Origin: an uncultured Duodenibacillus sp.
GTDB lineage: Bacteria; Pseudomonadota; Gammaproteobacteria; Burkholderiales; Burkholderiaceae_F
Length of the DNA: 64,000 nt
Direction of reading: 5' to 3'
NCBI GenBank assembly: GCA_944388865.1
Contig: CALXKM010000033.1
Span: forward strand, 98,054-162,053
The notes below the pieces were generated by a model. The model did not search any database, was not told the origin of the DNA, and worked only from the letters and a program-made list of their open reading frames with translations. Each line of letters starts with the position of its first letter. Positions within the stretch are counted from its first letter, which is position 1. Shown here in pieces: positions 12,545-17,352 of this stretch. The translations under genes were made by a program, and so were the position numbers.

Positions 12545-13861
12545 ATGGACTCACTCATCCGCAACTGCGCCTCCATCAACGAACTGCTTGCGCGCTACGG
12601 CGTCAAGTTCGGCATCTACAAAAACGGGGCCTTTCATGAGCAGCTGTTTCCCTTTGATCCCATGCCGCGCATCATTGAAGCCAGACAGTGGGTCGAACTT
12701 TCTGCGGGGCTCGGGCAGCGGGTGCGGGCGCTCAATGCATTCTTGCTTGACATCTACGGCAAAAAGCAAATCGTGCGCGACGGCGTCGTGCCCGAGGAGT
12801 TTGTGTTTTCCTCTTCGGGCTTTTTGCGTGCATGCGACGGCCTGACGCCTCCGGCGGGTGTTTATGCGCACATCGCAGGCATTGACCTTGTGCAGGCCCT
12901 TGACAAGACCTGGTACGTGCTCGAAGACAATCTGCGCATTCCTTCGGGCGCATCCTATCCGCTCATCGCGCGTGAGATCTGCCGCAGAGCCTCGCCGCAG
13001 ACCTTCAGAAGCGCAGGCATTCTGGAAAATCGCACCTATCCGGCCATGCTTTCGCGCATGATGAAAAGCGTGGCGGCCGAGGGCATTTGCGTGATCATGA
13101 CGCCGGGCCGCTACAATGCCGCCTTTTTTGAACACAGCTATTTGTCGGAAAAAACGGGCTTTGCTCTTGCCACCAACGAAGACCTCTTCGTTGAGGGAAA
13201 TAAGCTCTATTTTCGCGACTGCGCCAAGGGACGCGTGCGCGTGGGCGCCGTGTACCGGCGCATTTCGGATGAATATTTGGATCCTTTGACGTTTCTTCCC
13301 GAAAGCCTCATCGGCGTGCCCGGCATCATGGATGCCTATCGGGCCGGAAATGTTGCCATCATCAACGCTCCGGGCAACGGCGTGGCCGACGATAAGGGCA
13401 TTTACTACTTCGTGCCGAAAATGGTGGAGTACTACCTCGGTGAAAAAGCGATTTTGAAAAATGCTCCCACCTATCTGCCGTTTTATGAAGCAGACCGCGA
13501 GTATGTGCTCGATAATCTGCACAAGCTCGTGATCAAGGATGTGGCCGAAGCCGGAGGCTACGGTGTGGTCTTTGGAAGAGACATGACGGCCGATGAACTT
13601 GAGGGCTGGCGGCAGAGAATTCTCGCTGAGCCCCGTCGATTCATCGTGCAGGAAGTGATCGACTTCATTGATCTGCCGATAATTGAGGGCGCTCAAACCG
13701 TCTGCCGCAAGGCAGATTTGCGCGCTTTCGTACTCACGGGAGCCGACGGCGTCGAGGTGTGGCCAAGCGGTTTGACGCGTTTTTCACGCGTTGCCGACAG
13801 CTTCGTGGTCAATTCGTCTCAAGGCGGCGGCTTTAAGGATACCTGGGTGAAGGCGGCCTAA
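12545..13861 (+). CDS. circularly permuted ATP-grasp protein (amidoligase-type)
   Basis: A 438-aa protein of the circularly permuted ATP-grasp type 2 family (formerly DUF404/407). These are predicted amide-bond ligases that work with alpha-E and transglutaminase-like proteins to make or modify peptides; the true substrate is unknown. Recognisable family blocks include IMTPGRYNAAFFEH, the RRISDEYLDPL segment, and INAPGNGVADDKGIYYF with the following YLPFY region. The ATG at 12545 follows AGGAAAA; an upstream ATG at 12470 would add a run without similarity. It heads a run of five same-strand genes (to 17352). Confidence 0.85.
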   Translation: MDSLIRNCASINELLARYGVKFGIYKNGAFHEQLFPFDPMPRIIEARQWVELSAGLGQRVRALNAFLLDIYGKKQIVRDGVVPEEFVFSSSGFLRACDGLTPPAGVYAHIAGIDLVQALDKTWYVLEDNLRIPSGASYPLIAREICRRASPQTFRSAGILENRTYPAMLSRMMKSVAAEGICVIMTPGRYNAAFFEHSYLSEKTGFALATNEDLFVEGNKLYFRDCAKGRVRVGAVYRRISDEYLDPLTFLPESLIGVPGIMDAYRAGNVAIINAPGNGVADDKGIYYFVPKMVEYYLGEKAILKNAPTYLPFYEADREYVLDNLHKLVIKDVAEAGGYGVVFGRDMTADELEGWRQRILAEPRRFIVQEVIDFIDLPIIEGAQTVCRKADLRAFVLTGADGVEVWPSGLTRFSRVADSFVVNSSQGGGFKDTWVKAA

Positions 13862-13881
13862 GGCGCTTGCGGCTGATCTGT

Positions 13882-13904
13882 GCGGCTCTTTTCGCAAGAG
13901 CTGC
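13882..13904 (+). other. hairpin between ATP-grasp and alpha-E genes
   Basis: GCGGCTCTT pairs with AAGAGCTGC around a TTCGC loop (one G-T pair). No T-run follows, so it may tune transcript stability or ratio between the two genes and is unlikely to terminate transcription. Confidence 0.4.
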
Positions 13905-13954
13905 CTGCGCACATGTCTTGAGCAGTCCAAAAACGCAAACACGGAAAAATTTTC

Positions 13955-14641
13955 ATGAAGTCTATGCAAGTCTCAACGGCCATTTCCGCCGAACAAGCTG
14001 ATCGTCTCTACTGGCTGGGGCGCTATGTCGAGCGCGTGTACTCAACGCTGCGCCTTTTTAACCTTTCAATTGACCGCATGATCGACAAAGACGGAGAGGA
14101 CTACGTCGAATTCTGCCGGCGGCTCGCCATTCCGTCGGACATCTACGCAGATGCCGACGATTTTCAGAGCCGCTACCTTTTTGATCCCTCCAATCCTGAC
14201 TCGATCTATTCGAATCTTTCGCGTGCTTACGACAACGCGATTGTTCTTAGAAACTTCATCACGACCGAGACGATGGCCTACATTCAGCTTGCTCTTGACC
14301 GCCTCGAGCAGGGAGCGGTGGCCGATTCGGCATTTCTTGAAACGCAGCGCGTGGCCGACTGGCTGCTGGCGTTTTGGGGCTCGGTTGATGACCGCGTGGC
14401 CGATGTTGAGCGCCGCGACCTTCTGAAGGTCGGCAAATACTCCGAACGTTTGGATCTTTTGATCCGTCTTGATGTTCCGGAATATGCCGTTGATGCACTG
14501 CTGCCGAGGCTTTTGTCGCATACTAAGCGTGTTGAGCCGCTGTTAAACGGCGAGGTGCTCGCGCAGCTTCGCAGCTTGTCGGAGGCGGGCATGGAACAAA
14601 ATCGCGCGCAACTCCTTAAACTTGTGAACCTTTTGCATTAA
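13955..14641 (+). CDS. alpha-E domain protein (DUF403)
   Basis: A 228-aa all-helical protein that opens with the hallmark LYWLGRYVERVYSTLRL (about 18-34) of the alpha-E family. Later comes a block with ETMAYIQLALDRLEQG, and LLKLVNLLH at the C-terminus. The family is almost always encoded beside circularly permuted ATP-grasp and transglutaminase-like genes and is thought to act with the ligase; its biochemical role is unproven. It sits 93 bases after the ATP-grasp gene and 22 bases before the transglutaminase gene. Another ATG three codons in is an equally possible start. Confidence 0.85.
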   Translation: MKSMQVSTAISAEQADRLYWLGRYVERVYSTLRLFNLSIDRMIDKDGEDYVEFCRRLAIPSDIYADADDFQSRYLFDPSNPDSIYSNLSRAYDNAIVLRNFITTETMAYIQLALDRLEQGAVADSAFLETQRVADWLLAFWGSVDDRVADVERRDLLKVGKYSERLDLLIRLDVPEYAVDALLPRLLSHTKRVEPLLNGEVLAQLRSLSEAGMEQNRAQLLKLVNLLH

Positions 14642-14663
14642 CAGGCGTTTTTAGGAGCAAGCT

Positions 14664-15443
14664 TTGAAGTATCGCTATGCCCTCAGCACGGTGTTCGAAT
14701 TTTCCGAGCCTGTGACGGGTCACGTCTTTCGCATTCGTCCGGTGCCGGCGCAGCTGCCCGGACAGAACGTCATCGAAACGCATTTGGTCACAAGTCCCAT
14801 GCTGCCGCTGGCCTGTACCGAGGACAGCGTGCTGGGAAATTTGACATGGACTGGCCGCATCGATGAGCCGCATGGTTCTTTTACGATTGCCTCCAAGGGC
14901 ATCGTTGAGAGCGTTGATGCGCTCGAAAATGATATGCCGCCCGCACCGTACTTTGTCTACAGCACGGCTTTGACGCGTCCGGGAAAGAAAATCCTAGAGT
15001 TTTGGGAAAGCCTTAGGCCGCAGCTTGGCTTTGACGTCGAGCAGAAGGCTCTGCAGCTCATGCACGCCGTGCACCAGAGTTTTGAATACCGGCCGGGTGT
15101 GACAGGCACGCGAACAACTGCCGAAGATGCCATGACTTTAGGAGCTGGCGTTTGTCAAGACTATTCTCACGTCTTGATTGCCTTGCTGCGGCTTGCCGGC
15201 ATTCCTGCGCTTTATGTGGCCGGCCTTGTGCATGGAACGGGAGCTACGCATGCCTGGGTGCACGCTTGGGTGAAAAACCGCTGGCTTGCCCTTGATCCCA
15301 CGCATGATTGTCCGGCGCATGAGGCGTATGTTGCGCTTGCGCGCGGGTGCGATTTTCAGGACGCAGCACTTGAGCGAGGAGTCTTTCTCGGCGGTGCCTC
15401 TCAAACGATAAAAACTCAGGCTGGTGTTGAGCCTATTGAATAA
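14664..15443 (+). CDS. transglutaminase-like cysteine peptidase
   Basis: A 259-aa protein with the bacterial transglutaminase N-terminal beta region (about 1-110) followed by the papain-fold core. The catalytic triad is visible: C164 in GAGVCQDYSH, H196 in THAWVHAW and D211 in LDPTHD. In this gene neighbourhood such proteins are predicted to cleave or form amide bonds on peptides made by the ATP-grasp/alpha-E pair. Translation starts at a TTG at 14664 with AGGAG seven bases before it; the Met-Lys-Tyr start of the fold fits homologues. No signal peptide is seen, so it is cytoplasmic. Confidence 0.85.
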   Translation: MKYRYALSTVFEFSEPVTGHVFRIRPVPAQLPGQNVIETHLVTSPMLPLACTEDSVLGNLTWTGRIDEPHGSFTIASKGIVESVDALENDMPPAPYFVYSTALTRPGKKILEFWESLRPQLGFDVEQKALQLMHAVHQSFEYRPGVTGTRTTAEDAMTLGAGVCQDYSHVLIALLRLAGIPALYVAGLVHGTGATHAWVHAWVKNRWLALDPTHDCPAHEAYVALARGCDFQDAALERGVFLGGASQTIKTQAGVEPIE

Positions 15444-15448
15444 GAAAA

Positions 15449-16417
15449 ATGCTCAAACACGTCGTATCCATTCATATGCCGGTCGCCGAAAAGATGGTGA
15501 TCCGAAAAAATCGCGTGCTCCCGCAGGGCTTCACAGAAGAAGAGGCGGCAAGCCGCAGACTTCCTCGCATTTGCGTAGCAACCGGAACGCATGGCGATGA
15601 GCTCGAAGGACAGTATGTGTGCTGGCGGCTTAACCGCATCCTTGCAGAAAATCCCCAGCATGTTTCCGGCGTCGTCGATATCTATCCGGCCATCAACCCC
15701 TTGGGGATTGATTCGATCACGCGCGGCATTCCTCGCTTTGATCTGGATATGAACCGCATTTTTCCCGGAGATGCGAGGGGGACGACCGAAGAAGCAATCG
15801 CAGCCAGAATCATTGCGGACATGAAAGGTGCATCCTGTGCGGTGGACATTCACGCCTCAAACATTTTTCTGCGCGAGATTCCGCAGGTGCGCGTCAATGT
15901 CAATACGGCCGACAAGCTGCTTCCTTTGGCGCGTGAACTCAATTGCGATTTCATTTGGGTGCATGCGGCCGCAACCGTGCTCGAGAGCACGCTTGCCTGG
16001 TCGCTCAACAAGATCGGCGTGCCTTGTCTGGTGATTGAAGCCGGCGTCGGTATGCGCATTACGCAGGACTATGGAGAAAGAATCACGGCAGGACTGCTGC
16101 GGCTGATGAAGCGTCTGGGCATCTGGAGCGGTCCGGTGTCCGAGGTGACAGAACCGATTGTTTCCACCGACGGACGCGTGGGGTTCGTCAACGCCAACAG
16201 TCCGGGCATCTTCATTCCCAAGGTCGAGCACTGGATGAACATTCATCAGGGGCAGACGCTGGGACTCATTACAAATCCGGCCGACGGCGGCGTTCTCGAA
16301 GAGGTCAAAAGTCCCTGCAACGGACTGGTCTTTACTCTGCGCGAATATCCCGTCGTCAATCCCGGCTCGCTCGTGGCGCGCGTTCTTGACGTCGACTCCA
16401 AGGAGGGCGCAAAGTGA
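15449..16417 (+). CDS. succinylglutamate desuccinylase/aspartoacylase family hydrolase, intact active site
   Basis: A 322-aa zinc hydrolase of the AstE/AspA branch of the M14 carboxypeptidase superfamily, which cleaves acyl-amino acid or peptide amide bonds. Zinc ligands are H48 and E51 (in THGDE) and H135 (in VDIHAS). The substrate-binding N102-R103 is in DMNRIFPG and the catalytic E196 is in LVIEAG. It starts 5 bases after the transglutaminase gene, and its end overlaps the next gene by four bases (GTGA). This operon position suggests it trims the product of the ligase rather than acting in arginine catabolism; no ast genes are nearby. Confidence 0.85.
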   Translation: MLKHVVSIHMPVAEKMVIRKNRVLPQGFTEEEAASRRLPRICVATGTHGDELEGQYVCWRLNRILAENPQHVSGVVDIYPAINPLGIDSITRGIPRFDLDMNRIFPGDARGTTEEAIAARIIADMKGASCAVDIHASNIFLREIPQVRVNVNTADKLLPLARELNCDFIWVHAAATVLESTLAWSLNKIGVPCLVIEAGVGMRITQDYGERITAGLLRLMKRLGIWSGPVSEVTEPIVSTDGRVGFVNANSPGIFIPKVEHWMNIHQGQTLGLITNPADGGVLEEVKSPCNGLVFTLREYPVVNPGSLVARVLDVDSKEGAK

Positions 16418-17352
16418 AGAAAGTCAAGATTTTTGAGATGCCCTCGCTTTACCGTGAGCCGCTTGAAATCACTGGATATCGCTTCGGCAGGGGAGAAAAA
16501 AGCGCAGCCGTGGTCGGCGCCATGCGCGGCAATGAAATTCAGCAGCTCTACATCTGCTCGCAGCTCGTGCGCAAGCTCAAGGCAATCGAGGCCGAAGGAG
16601 GCGTTCGCGAGGGCGCTTCCATTGAAGTCATCCCGTGCGTCAATCCCTATTCGGTCAATATCGGCAAGCGCTTTTGGGCGATGGACGACACCGACATCAA
16701 CCGCATGTTCCCAGGCTACGATCAGGGAGAGACGACGCAGCGCATTGCAGCCGGCCTTTTCAAACATCTCGAAGGCTGGAAGTGGGGCGTGCACTTTGCG
16801 TCGTTTTATTTAAGAGGCGACTTTGTTCCTCATGTGCGCATGATGCAGACCGACTTCGGCGACCCTCAAGCGGCCATGGACTTCGGTCTGCCTTTTGTGT
16901 TCGTGCGCAAGCCTTCGCCGATGGATACAACGACGCTCAACTACAACTGGCAGATTTGGGATACGCGCGCTTATACGATTTTTACGAGCCAAACGAATCA
17001 TATCGATCAGACATCGGCCGATATTGCCGTCAATGCCGTGCTGCGCTTTCTCGTCAAAAGAGGCCTTATCGACTATCGCATTGACGGAGGCCGCGTGCCG
17101 GAAATGCTCCATGAGTCCTGGATTGCCTCCGTGCACGCCGGCGCGGCAGGCATCTTCAGGCGCCTGATGGCTCCGGGAGCCCAAGCGCACAAGGGCGAGT
17201 TGATGGGCGAAATCATTGATCCCTGCGAAGGACATGTGCTGCGCGAGATTGAGGCGCCCTGCGACGGTCTGATCTTTTTTGCCTGCCATGACGCTCTGGT
17301 GATGCAGCGCCAGATTCTTTTCGGCGTCATCAAGGATTTTCACGCGGGTTAG
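16414..17352 (+). CDS. AstE-like paralogue with degenerate catalytic site
   Basis: A 312-aa relative of the preceding gene with the same fold landmarks: the MRGNE block (37-41), N96-R97 in INRMFPG, and H127 in GVHFAS. The first zinc-ligand histidine is replaced by R38. The region matching the catalytic LVIEAG reads TIFTSQ near 188-193, with no glutamate. It may be a non-catalytic partner of the upstream enzyme or may use altered chemistry. Start GTG 16414 overlaps the upstream stop, with AAGGAGG at about 16400-16406, so the two are translationally coupled. Confidence 0.8.
   Translation: MKKVKIFEMPSLYREPLEITGYRFGRGEKSAAVVGAMRGNEIQQLYICSQLVRKLKAIEAEGGVREGASIEVIPCVNPYSVNIGKRFWAMDDTDINRMFPGYDQGETTQRIAAGLFKHLEGWKWGVHFASFYLRGDFVPHVRMMQTDFGDPQAAMDFGLPFVFVRKPSPMDTTTLNYNWQIWDTRAYTIFTSQTNHIDQTSADIAVNAVLRFLVKRGLIDYRIDGGRVPEMLHESWIASVHAGAAGIFRRLMAPGAQAHKGELMGEIIDPCEGHVLREIEAPCDGLIFFACHDALVMQRQILFGVIKDFHAG

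Follow-up and report, generated by a model that had tools for sequence, protein, structure and literature searches.

In a 64,000-nucleotide stretch of DNA from an uncultured Duodenibacillus species (contig CALXKM010000033.1; the whole stretch is called the window below) we found a cassette of five genes that is a new, Anbu-free form of a predicted class of system. The cassette encodes a circularly permuted ATP-grasp protein, a short alpha-E protein, a transglutaminase-fold protein and two proteins related to AstE, here called AstE1 and AstE2. The genes are located on the + strand at positions 12545-17352 and are as tightly spaced as the first-pass annotation had described: Pfam matches exceed the cut-off for all five proteins, and the open reading frames (ORFs) have intergenic gaps of 93, 22 and 5 bases followed by a 4-base overlap (the start of the first gene was taken as the ATG at 12545; the listed ORF opens further upstream at a TTG). 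We tentatively consider the five genes to be one functional unit, a ligase-plus-eraser cassette, and give this reading slightly less than an even chance.

The association between the AstE genes and the other three genes was found conserved. In a comparison of 67 genomes from 18 genera of the window's family (NCBI taxonomy places Duodenibacillus in the Sutterellaceae, Burkholderiales) AstE2 was identified in 14 genomes, belonging to six genera, with AstE1 directly adjoining in each. In all 14 (the window and 13 other stretches) the five genes have a common order and strand, which is far beyond chance, and 50 of the 52 intergenic gaps in 13 copies of the family measure at most 59 bases (first-start calls; ORFs under 70 amino acids were not looked for). 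Among 399 genomes drawn from the order, AstE2 was present at an expectation value (E) of 1e-15 in four, all of them within the window's family.

Table 1. The five genes of the cassette, with their positions in the window and the matches on which the assignments rest.
Gene product	Position	Strand	Evidence
Circularly permuted ATP-grasp protein, predicted amide/isopeptide ligase, 438 aa	12545..13861	+	Pfam PF14403 461 bits, PF04174 425 bits
Short alpha-E protein, all-helical, 228 aa	13955..14641	+	PF04168 84.6 bits, profile positions 6-164 of 294
Transglutaminase/papain-fold protein, 259 aa	14664..15443	+	Transglut_core 72.4 bits, Bact_transglu_N 40.4 bits; triad C164-H196-D211
AstE1, AstE/aspartoacylase-like predicted zinc amidohydrolase, 322 aa	15449..16417	+	AstE_AspA_cat PF24827 72.4 bits
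AstE2, AstE fold lacking the zinc site, predicted pseudoenzyme and partner of AstE1, 312 aa	16414..17352	+	PF24827 40.2 bits

AstE2 and Anbu were also found to exclude each other in the window's family. The first-pass annotation had noted the absence of Anbu, and indeed no match to a direct Anbu protein query was found in the whole 2.49-Mb, 53-contig assembly, so that no Anbu was detected nearby outside the window either; nor did the query match in any of the 13 further genomes of the family that have AstE2. The query was a protein (L056:8182-9048) from a classic locus of the family, which matched, among solved structures, a designed Anbu at E 4e-93 and chains named Anbu at E 1e-72. The Pfam model PF00227 is a weak test for Anbu, as it scores the query at 22.3 bits, about at its cut-off; its single match in the assembly was HslV, adjoining HslU. 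Within the 67 genomes alpha-E was detected in 33, AstE2 in 14 and Anbu in 14, and the alpha-E genomes divide into 14 with AstE2, 14 with Anbu, none with both and five with neither (Fisher p = 1.5e-5, relatedness ignored). The five with neither are G026, G032, G035, G047 and G066. In G047 (L046:154-1332) the transglutaminase gene is followed by a same-strand gene with a Fic domain.

The first three genes had been regarded as a predicted peptide-ligation or modification set of the kind often accompanied by Anbu. The ATP-grasp and transglutaminase gene types match, but by their sequences the cassette ATP-grasp and alpha-E proteins are subtypes distinct from those of the Anbu-type genes. The window ATP-grasp protein aligns over residues 14-435 with PDB entry 3n6x, annotated as 'putative glutathionylspermidine synthase' (E 9.6e-117), and is strongly conserved across 68 cassette copies; in the ATP-grasp tree ten classic copies were separated from the cassette copies with a support of 100. 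The window alpha-E covers about half of the PF04168 model and represents a short subtype, with scores of 70.4-85.5 bits in the AstE2 genomes of the family versus at least 273 bits for the best copy in the Anbu genomes. Its structure model is confident and all-helical (predicted local distance difference test, pLDDT, 93.8), no PDB structure was matched by Foldseek at E 0.001, and the residues G22, R23 and E26 are kept in all 77 cassette copies examined. In the same number of transglutaminase copies the triad is nearly invariant (C in 77, H in 76 and D in 76 with one gap). The window's family also includes classic ATP-grasp/alpha-E loci close to which Anbu is encoded, and one could suppose that the cassette is an ordinary Anbu-type operon minus Anbu, to which AstE genes were added by chance in this strain; with ligase genes of separate subtypes, and with a five-gene order common to six genera of the family and to Clostridia, this is very improbable.

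Of the two AstE proteins, both described as hydrolases in the first-pass annotation, AstE1 alone looks like one. AstE1 matches the AstE/AspA catalytic-domain model PF24827 and has an H-x-x-E motif, a second His and a catalytic Glu, and H48, E51, H135, E197 and R103 are all kept in the 74 cassette copies examined. Relatives with a solved structure include 3cdx, 2qj8 and the N-acetyl-diaminobutyrate deacetylase DoeB (6twl/6twm), but AstE1 falls far under the cut-off of the DoeB equivalog model TIGR02994 (40.4 versus 402.7 bits; AstE2 scores 26.1 bits). The conservation is less strict in AstE pairs that occur without the other three genes (lone pairs): in 37 of these H48 is lost in 8, R103 in 13 and D98 in 14, but none has lost H135 or E197, and AstE1 is altered at H48, E51 or R103 in 16 of the 37 versus none of the 74 cassettes (Fisher p = 1.6e-9). 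AstE1 rows of unusable length were left out of these counts (cassettes L040, L098, L099 and L105; lone pairs L169 and L177); in L040 the protein was called short although its reading frame stays open over 306 aa, and a standard start codon is probably missing.

AstE2 has lost the zinc site. In the joint alignment (n = 129) the column of the first zinc His is occupied by R in all copies, that of the second by A, T, P, S, G or R but never by His, and that of the catalytic Glu by Y, F, L, I or V but never by Glu, leaving the E of H-x-x-E as the sole residue of the zinc/catalytic site that is kept (129/129). Fourteen copies, including that of the window, have a His two columns ahead of the second site; this His is not conserved, Q being found there in 114. 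AstE2 nevertheless has conserved residues of its own, N96 and H140 in all 129 copies and D171, N176 and Q180 in 128, which speaks for a conserved role other than zinc catalysis. The structure model (pLDDT 87.2, weak at residues 88-93) matched best with the AstE-fold crystal structures 3cdx (E 2e-19) and 6twm (E 1e-18). We predict that AstE2 is an AstE-fold pseudoenzyme and the non-catalytic partner of AstE1.

The relation between the AstE pair and the ligase genes was also found in Clostridia. In an even sample of 291 genomes from the class to which Faecalicatena contorta (G075) belongs, 10 had strong AstE2 matches and one a short weak match, and in an even sample of 299 genomes from its family AstE2 (E 1e-30) was present in 65, at 75 places (two of which are pieces in G409). 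Cassette-type genes are frequent in this family: alpha-E was found in 37 of the 299 genomes, in every case of the short type (55-86 bits). Both genes occur in 36 genomes (Fisher p = 2e-27, relatedness ignored), and AstE2 occurs without alpha-E in 29 of the 65. Thirty-four of the 37 alpha-E genes lie at most 4 kb from AstE2, including that of a decayed cassette (G606), which, next to the complete linkage in the window's family (14/14), supports the earlier proposal to group the AstE pair with the first three genes; two of the alpha-E genes without the pair (G443 and G481) are on contigs that break off within the transglutaminase gene or shortly behind it. Alpha-E is thus hardly ever found without the pair and the pair is often found without alpha-E, as expected if a ligase needs its eraser.

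It is on this asymmetry, and on the strict conservation of the AstE1 residues only beside ligase genes, that we favour a ligase with its eraser. In this mechanism the ATP-grasp protein would join a carboxylate to an amine with the use of ATP, giving a small amide or isopeptide conjugate (a free metabolite or a tag). The short alpha-E would be the helical partner of the ATP-grasp protein, and processing or transfer of the conjugate would fall to the transglutaminase-fold enzyme. AstE1 would act as a zinc amidohydrolase that cuts the conjugate again, and AstE2 would assist it in substrate binding or control, so that in this branch the AstE pair would fulfil the hydrolase role proposed for Anbu in the classic operon. 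Precedents for such a mechanism are the phosphate release by the ATP-grasp protein of an Anbu operon (PMC6376114), the genetic rescue of Rlo peptidase mutants (PMC12239564) and the AstE-annotated isoaspartyl dipeptidases (PMC10206079), each described below. It is possible that the product is an acyl- or aminoacyl-peptide that is then trimmed, as had been suggested at first reading. We also considered a fuller scenario, in which a hitherto undescribed ligase-and-eraser pathway common in Clostridia moved into the Sutterellaceae, its isopeptide metabolite or tag being erased by a heteromer of active AstE1 and the pseudoenzyme AstE2, and in which the pair, after loss of the ligase, was kept with a changeable active site; taken as a whole, we find this scenario possible but doubtful.

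Several observations weigh against one functional unit. No alpha-E is present within 4 kb of 41 of the 75 Clostridia AstE2 places (some at contig ends). The pair thus often occurs without the other three genes, which the first-pass annotation had not noted; such lone pairs show use without a ligase and could serve a function of their own. A genuine exception in the other direction is G629, which has the three genes but lacks the pair in 6.6 kb of readable sequence, and in the window's family G047 has a short alpha-E but no AstE2 match, on a contig of 4 kb. In G606 (L166) the cassette has decayed, with the ATP-grasp gene in two pieces and short transglutaminase and AstE1 fragments. The loss of AstE1 residues in lone pairs represents few independent events (4-5 independent contrasts, of which the trait differs in 1-2, so that a sign test cannot reach 0.05). 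Finally, in work on the Anbu operon no specific interaction among its proteins was found (PMC6376114), and inhibitor binding by Anbu led to a preference for protein degradation over peptide synthesis (PMC5666114).

The lone pairs could also mean that in Clostridia the AstE pair serves as a metabolic enzyme, commonly encoded just upstream of purL, and was recruited beside ligase genes with which it shares no substrate. In line with this, seven of the eight checked genomes whose AstE2 locus is without cassette had no alpha-E match, and purL lies downstream on the same strand of 22 of the 34 lone pairs with 5 kb readable downstream (e.g. L172:6334-12204) versus 4 of 57 cassettes. We read the latter association as one of position rather than function. 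Some lone pairs are preceded by a divergent LysR-type gene. Two such independent modules are, however, difficult to reconcile with the close linkage of 34 of the 37 alpha-E genes, with a gene order that is kept across Clostridia and Burkholderiales and with AstE1 residues that are strictly kept only in cassettes. In addition, the lone pairs look nested among the cassettes in the AstE2 tree (depending on the root), and the decaying cassettes L095/L138, in which an 81-aa alpha-E remnant precedes the AstE pair, and L166 look like intermediates toward lone pairs. We therefore regard two unrelated modules as quite unlikely.

With regard to its history, the cassette probably reached the window's family by one transfer from Clostridia, followed by losses and moves, which is the simplest reading of the trees. 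The Burkholderiales copies formed a clade (support 99) lying among the Clostridia copies in the ATP-grasp tree, and the AstE2 tree places all 14 of them on one side of a branch that lacks support; both were quick trees, and for the former 30 of the 54 copies from outside the window's family were drawn at random. The lone-pair and cassette states changed 5 times on the AstE1 tree and 8 times on the AstE2 tree. L058, identical to L037 (G013, of the same genus as the window), was left out of the trees and alignments, the tree and the contrasts also exclude 12 'unknown' loci truncated close to a contig end, and L166, L173, L174 and L175, which have no single long AstE2, were left unlabelled. The cassette of the window is flanked by feoA/feoB on one side and by nrdA/nrdB-type genes on the other. 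When the flanking proteins were compared with selected ORFs from the 13 other stretches, none matched at E 1e-20 (some of these stretches have little flank, and FeoA is short for the threshold), a result that speaks for different sites, albeit without proof for each stretch. The GC content of the cassette resembles that of the flanks in the stretches of the family.

A scan of named genomes yielded at least 552 relatives, of which the best 80 were kept; these are the nearest ones and not a random sample. Sixty-three of the 80 loci have the five genes in order (six of these with one gene called in two pieces), 9 are cut at most 4.4 kb upstream (four of them showing part of the cassette), 7 have the pair alone and L095 has an alpha-E remnant; AstE1 is present in all 80. 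According to their titles these best 80 loci come from one Duodenibacillus, one archaeal metagenome-assembled genome, one unplaced 'Bacterium 1XD21-70' and otherwise from Clostridia and other Firmicutes, with gut or rumen samples named in many of the titles. In the archaeal genome, whose title is Candidatus Methanomethylophilaceae archaeon, the five genes are located on a contig of 51 kb (L111; CALUOK010000017.1); the cassette was either transferred to this archaeon or binned with it in error. A search of plasmids returned four records, all of them AstE-family matches at 22-24% identity. Neighbouring genes were considered as a guide to the substrate, but no constant partner was found among these 80 loci.

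A role in nitrogen storage was considered as well: the cassette would make and mobilise a small isopeptide, comparable to cyanophycin or gamma-glutamyl conjugates, it would be induced when nitrogen is short, and AstE1 would be an isodipeptidase. The cyanophycin dipeptide hydrolase CphZ (8ein/8eip) was indeed among the fold matches of AstE2, and it was matched by the profiles of AstE2 (E 3.4e-8, only in the C-terminal part, residues 193-305) and AstE1 (E 0.0035), but these matches seem to indicate superfamily kinship only. Some enzymes annotated as AstE are isoaspartyl dipeptidases of cyanophycin degradation (PMC10206079). Moreover, a cluster of DUF404/407, DUF403 and transglutaminase genes, the subtype of which was not checked, is under sigma54-NtrC control in Burkholderia cenocepacia (PMC5491218), the same domains track urea metabolism in marine metagenomes (PMC3597751) and Anbu rises under nitrogen limitation (PMC6376114, PMC5666114). 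Control by sigma54 was rejected for the cassette of the window: a convincing -24/-12 site was found in only one of the 14 upstream regions, a near-consensus site (11/12) in L038 some 64 bases before the called ATP-grasp start, and the other 13, that of the window included, reached at most 8/12. Since the Clostridia neighbour genes are not consistently nitrogen genes either, we consider nitrogen storage unlikely.

Alternatively, the product could be a modified protein: amino acids or a peptide would be attached to it by the ATP-grasp protein, with alpha-E and the transglutaminase-fold enzyme, as the writer, and would be removed by the AstE pair as the eraser. M14 carboxypeptidases, which act on peptides and proteins, were indeed among the more distant fold matches of AstE2 (E about 1e-5), but the nearest characterised fold matches (DoeB, CphZ and aspartoacylase) act on small substrates, namely N-acyl amino acids or dipeptides. 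The short intergenic gaps, moreover, leave little room for a tag gene within the size range of ORFs looked for. Protein tagging was proposed for the Anbu operon by Iyer 2009 (as cited in PMC6376114), and pairs of an ATP-grasp enzyme and a peptidase are known in RimK/RimB and RloC/RloA, of which RimK adds glutamates to RpsF (PMC12239564). Taken together, we give protein tagging by the cassette only a small chance.

The ligase-plus-eraser reading would have a practical consequence. The ATP-grasp protein of the Anbu operon releases phosphate from ATP and its Anbu showed no peptidase activity (PMC6376114). The cassette would offer, in the place of Anbu, a tractable zinc hydrolase and thereby a direct way to the ligase product, because the substrate of AstE1 should be that product. 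Among characterised enzymes, those closest to AstE1 have small amides or isopeptides as substrates, which hints at a product of this kind, although peptidases also occur in the wider M14 fold. Our literature search gave, among the papers listed, no link between AstE and the ATP-grasp/alpha-E/transglutaminase cluster, an earlier mention in Iyer et al. 2009 not being excluded.

Several known systems resemble the cassette in part. In cyanophycin metabolism (CphA, cyanophycinase and isoaspartyl dipeptidase) an isopeptide is made ATP-dependently and later cut by an enzyme of the AstE family (PMC10206079); no CphA-type synthetase or cyanophycinase was found among the five genes, the two downstream genes or FeoB upstream (the rest of the genome was not searched). 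The RimK/RimB and RloA-RloB-RloC systems of Pseudomonas likewise combine an ATP-grasp enzyme with a counteracting peptidase, in one case together with a transglutaminase-fold protein, and a mutation of RloB or of the ATP-grasp RloC rescues the defects seen in mutants that lack Rlo peptidases (PMC12239564). They differ from the cassette in their RimK-like ATP-grasp, aspartic peptidases and a membrane-bound, inactive transglutaminase, and alpha-E goes unmentioned in the available part of that source (PMC12239564). The AstE/aspartoacylase-like amidohydrolases (DoeB/EutE, 3cdx, 2qj8 and CphZ) share the family model and the zinc and catalytic residues with AstE1 and the fold with AstE2, but neither cassette protein comes near the DoeB cut-off, AstE2 lacks the zinc site, and the two form a conserved pair. 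The Anbu operon, finally, also unites genes for a circularly permuted ATP-grasp, an alpha-E and a transglutaminase-fold protein in one operon, together with a hydrolase that has a different fold; unlike this operon, the cassette has the AstE pair instead of Anbu, a short alpha-E and an ATP-grasp on a separate, fully supported branch.

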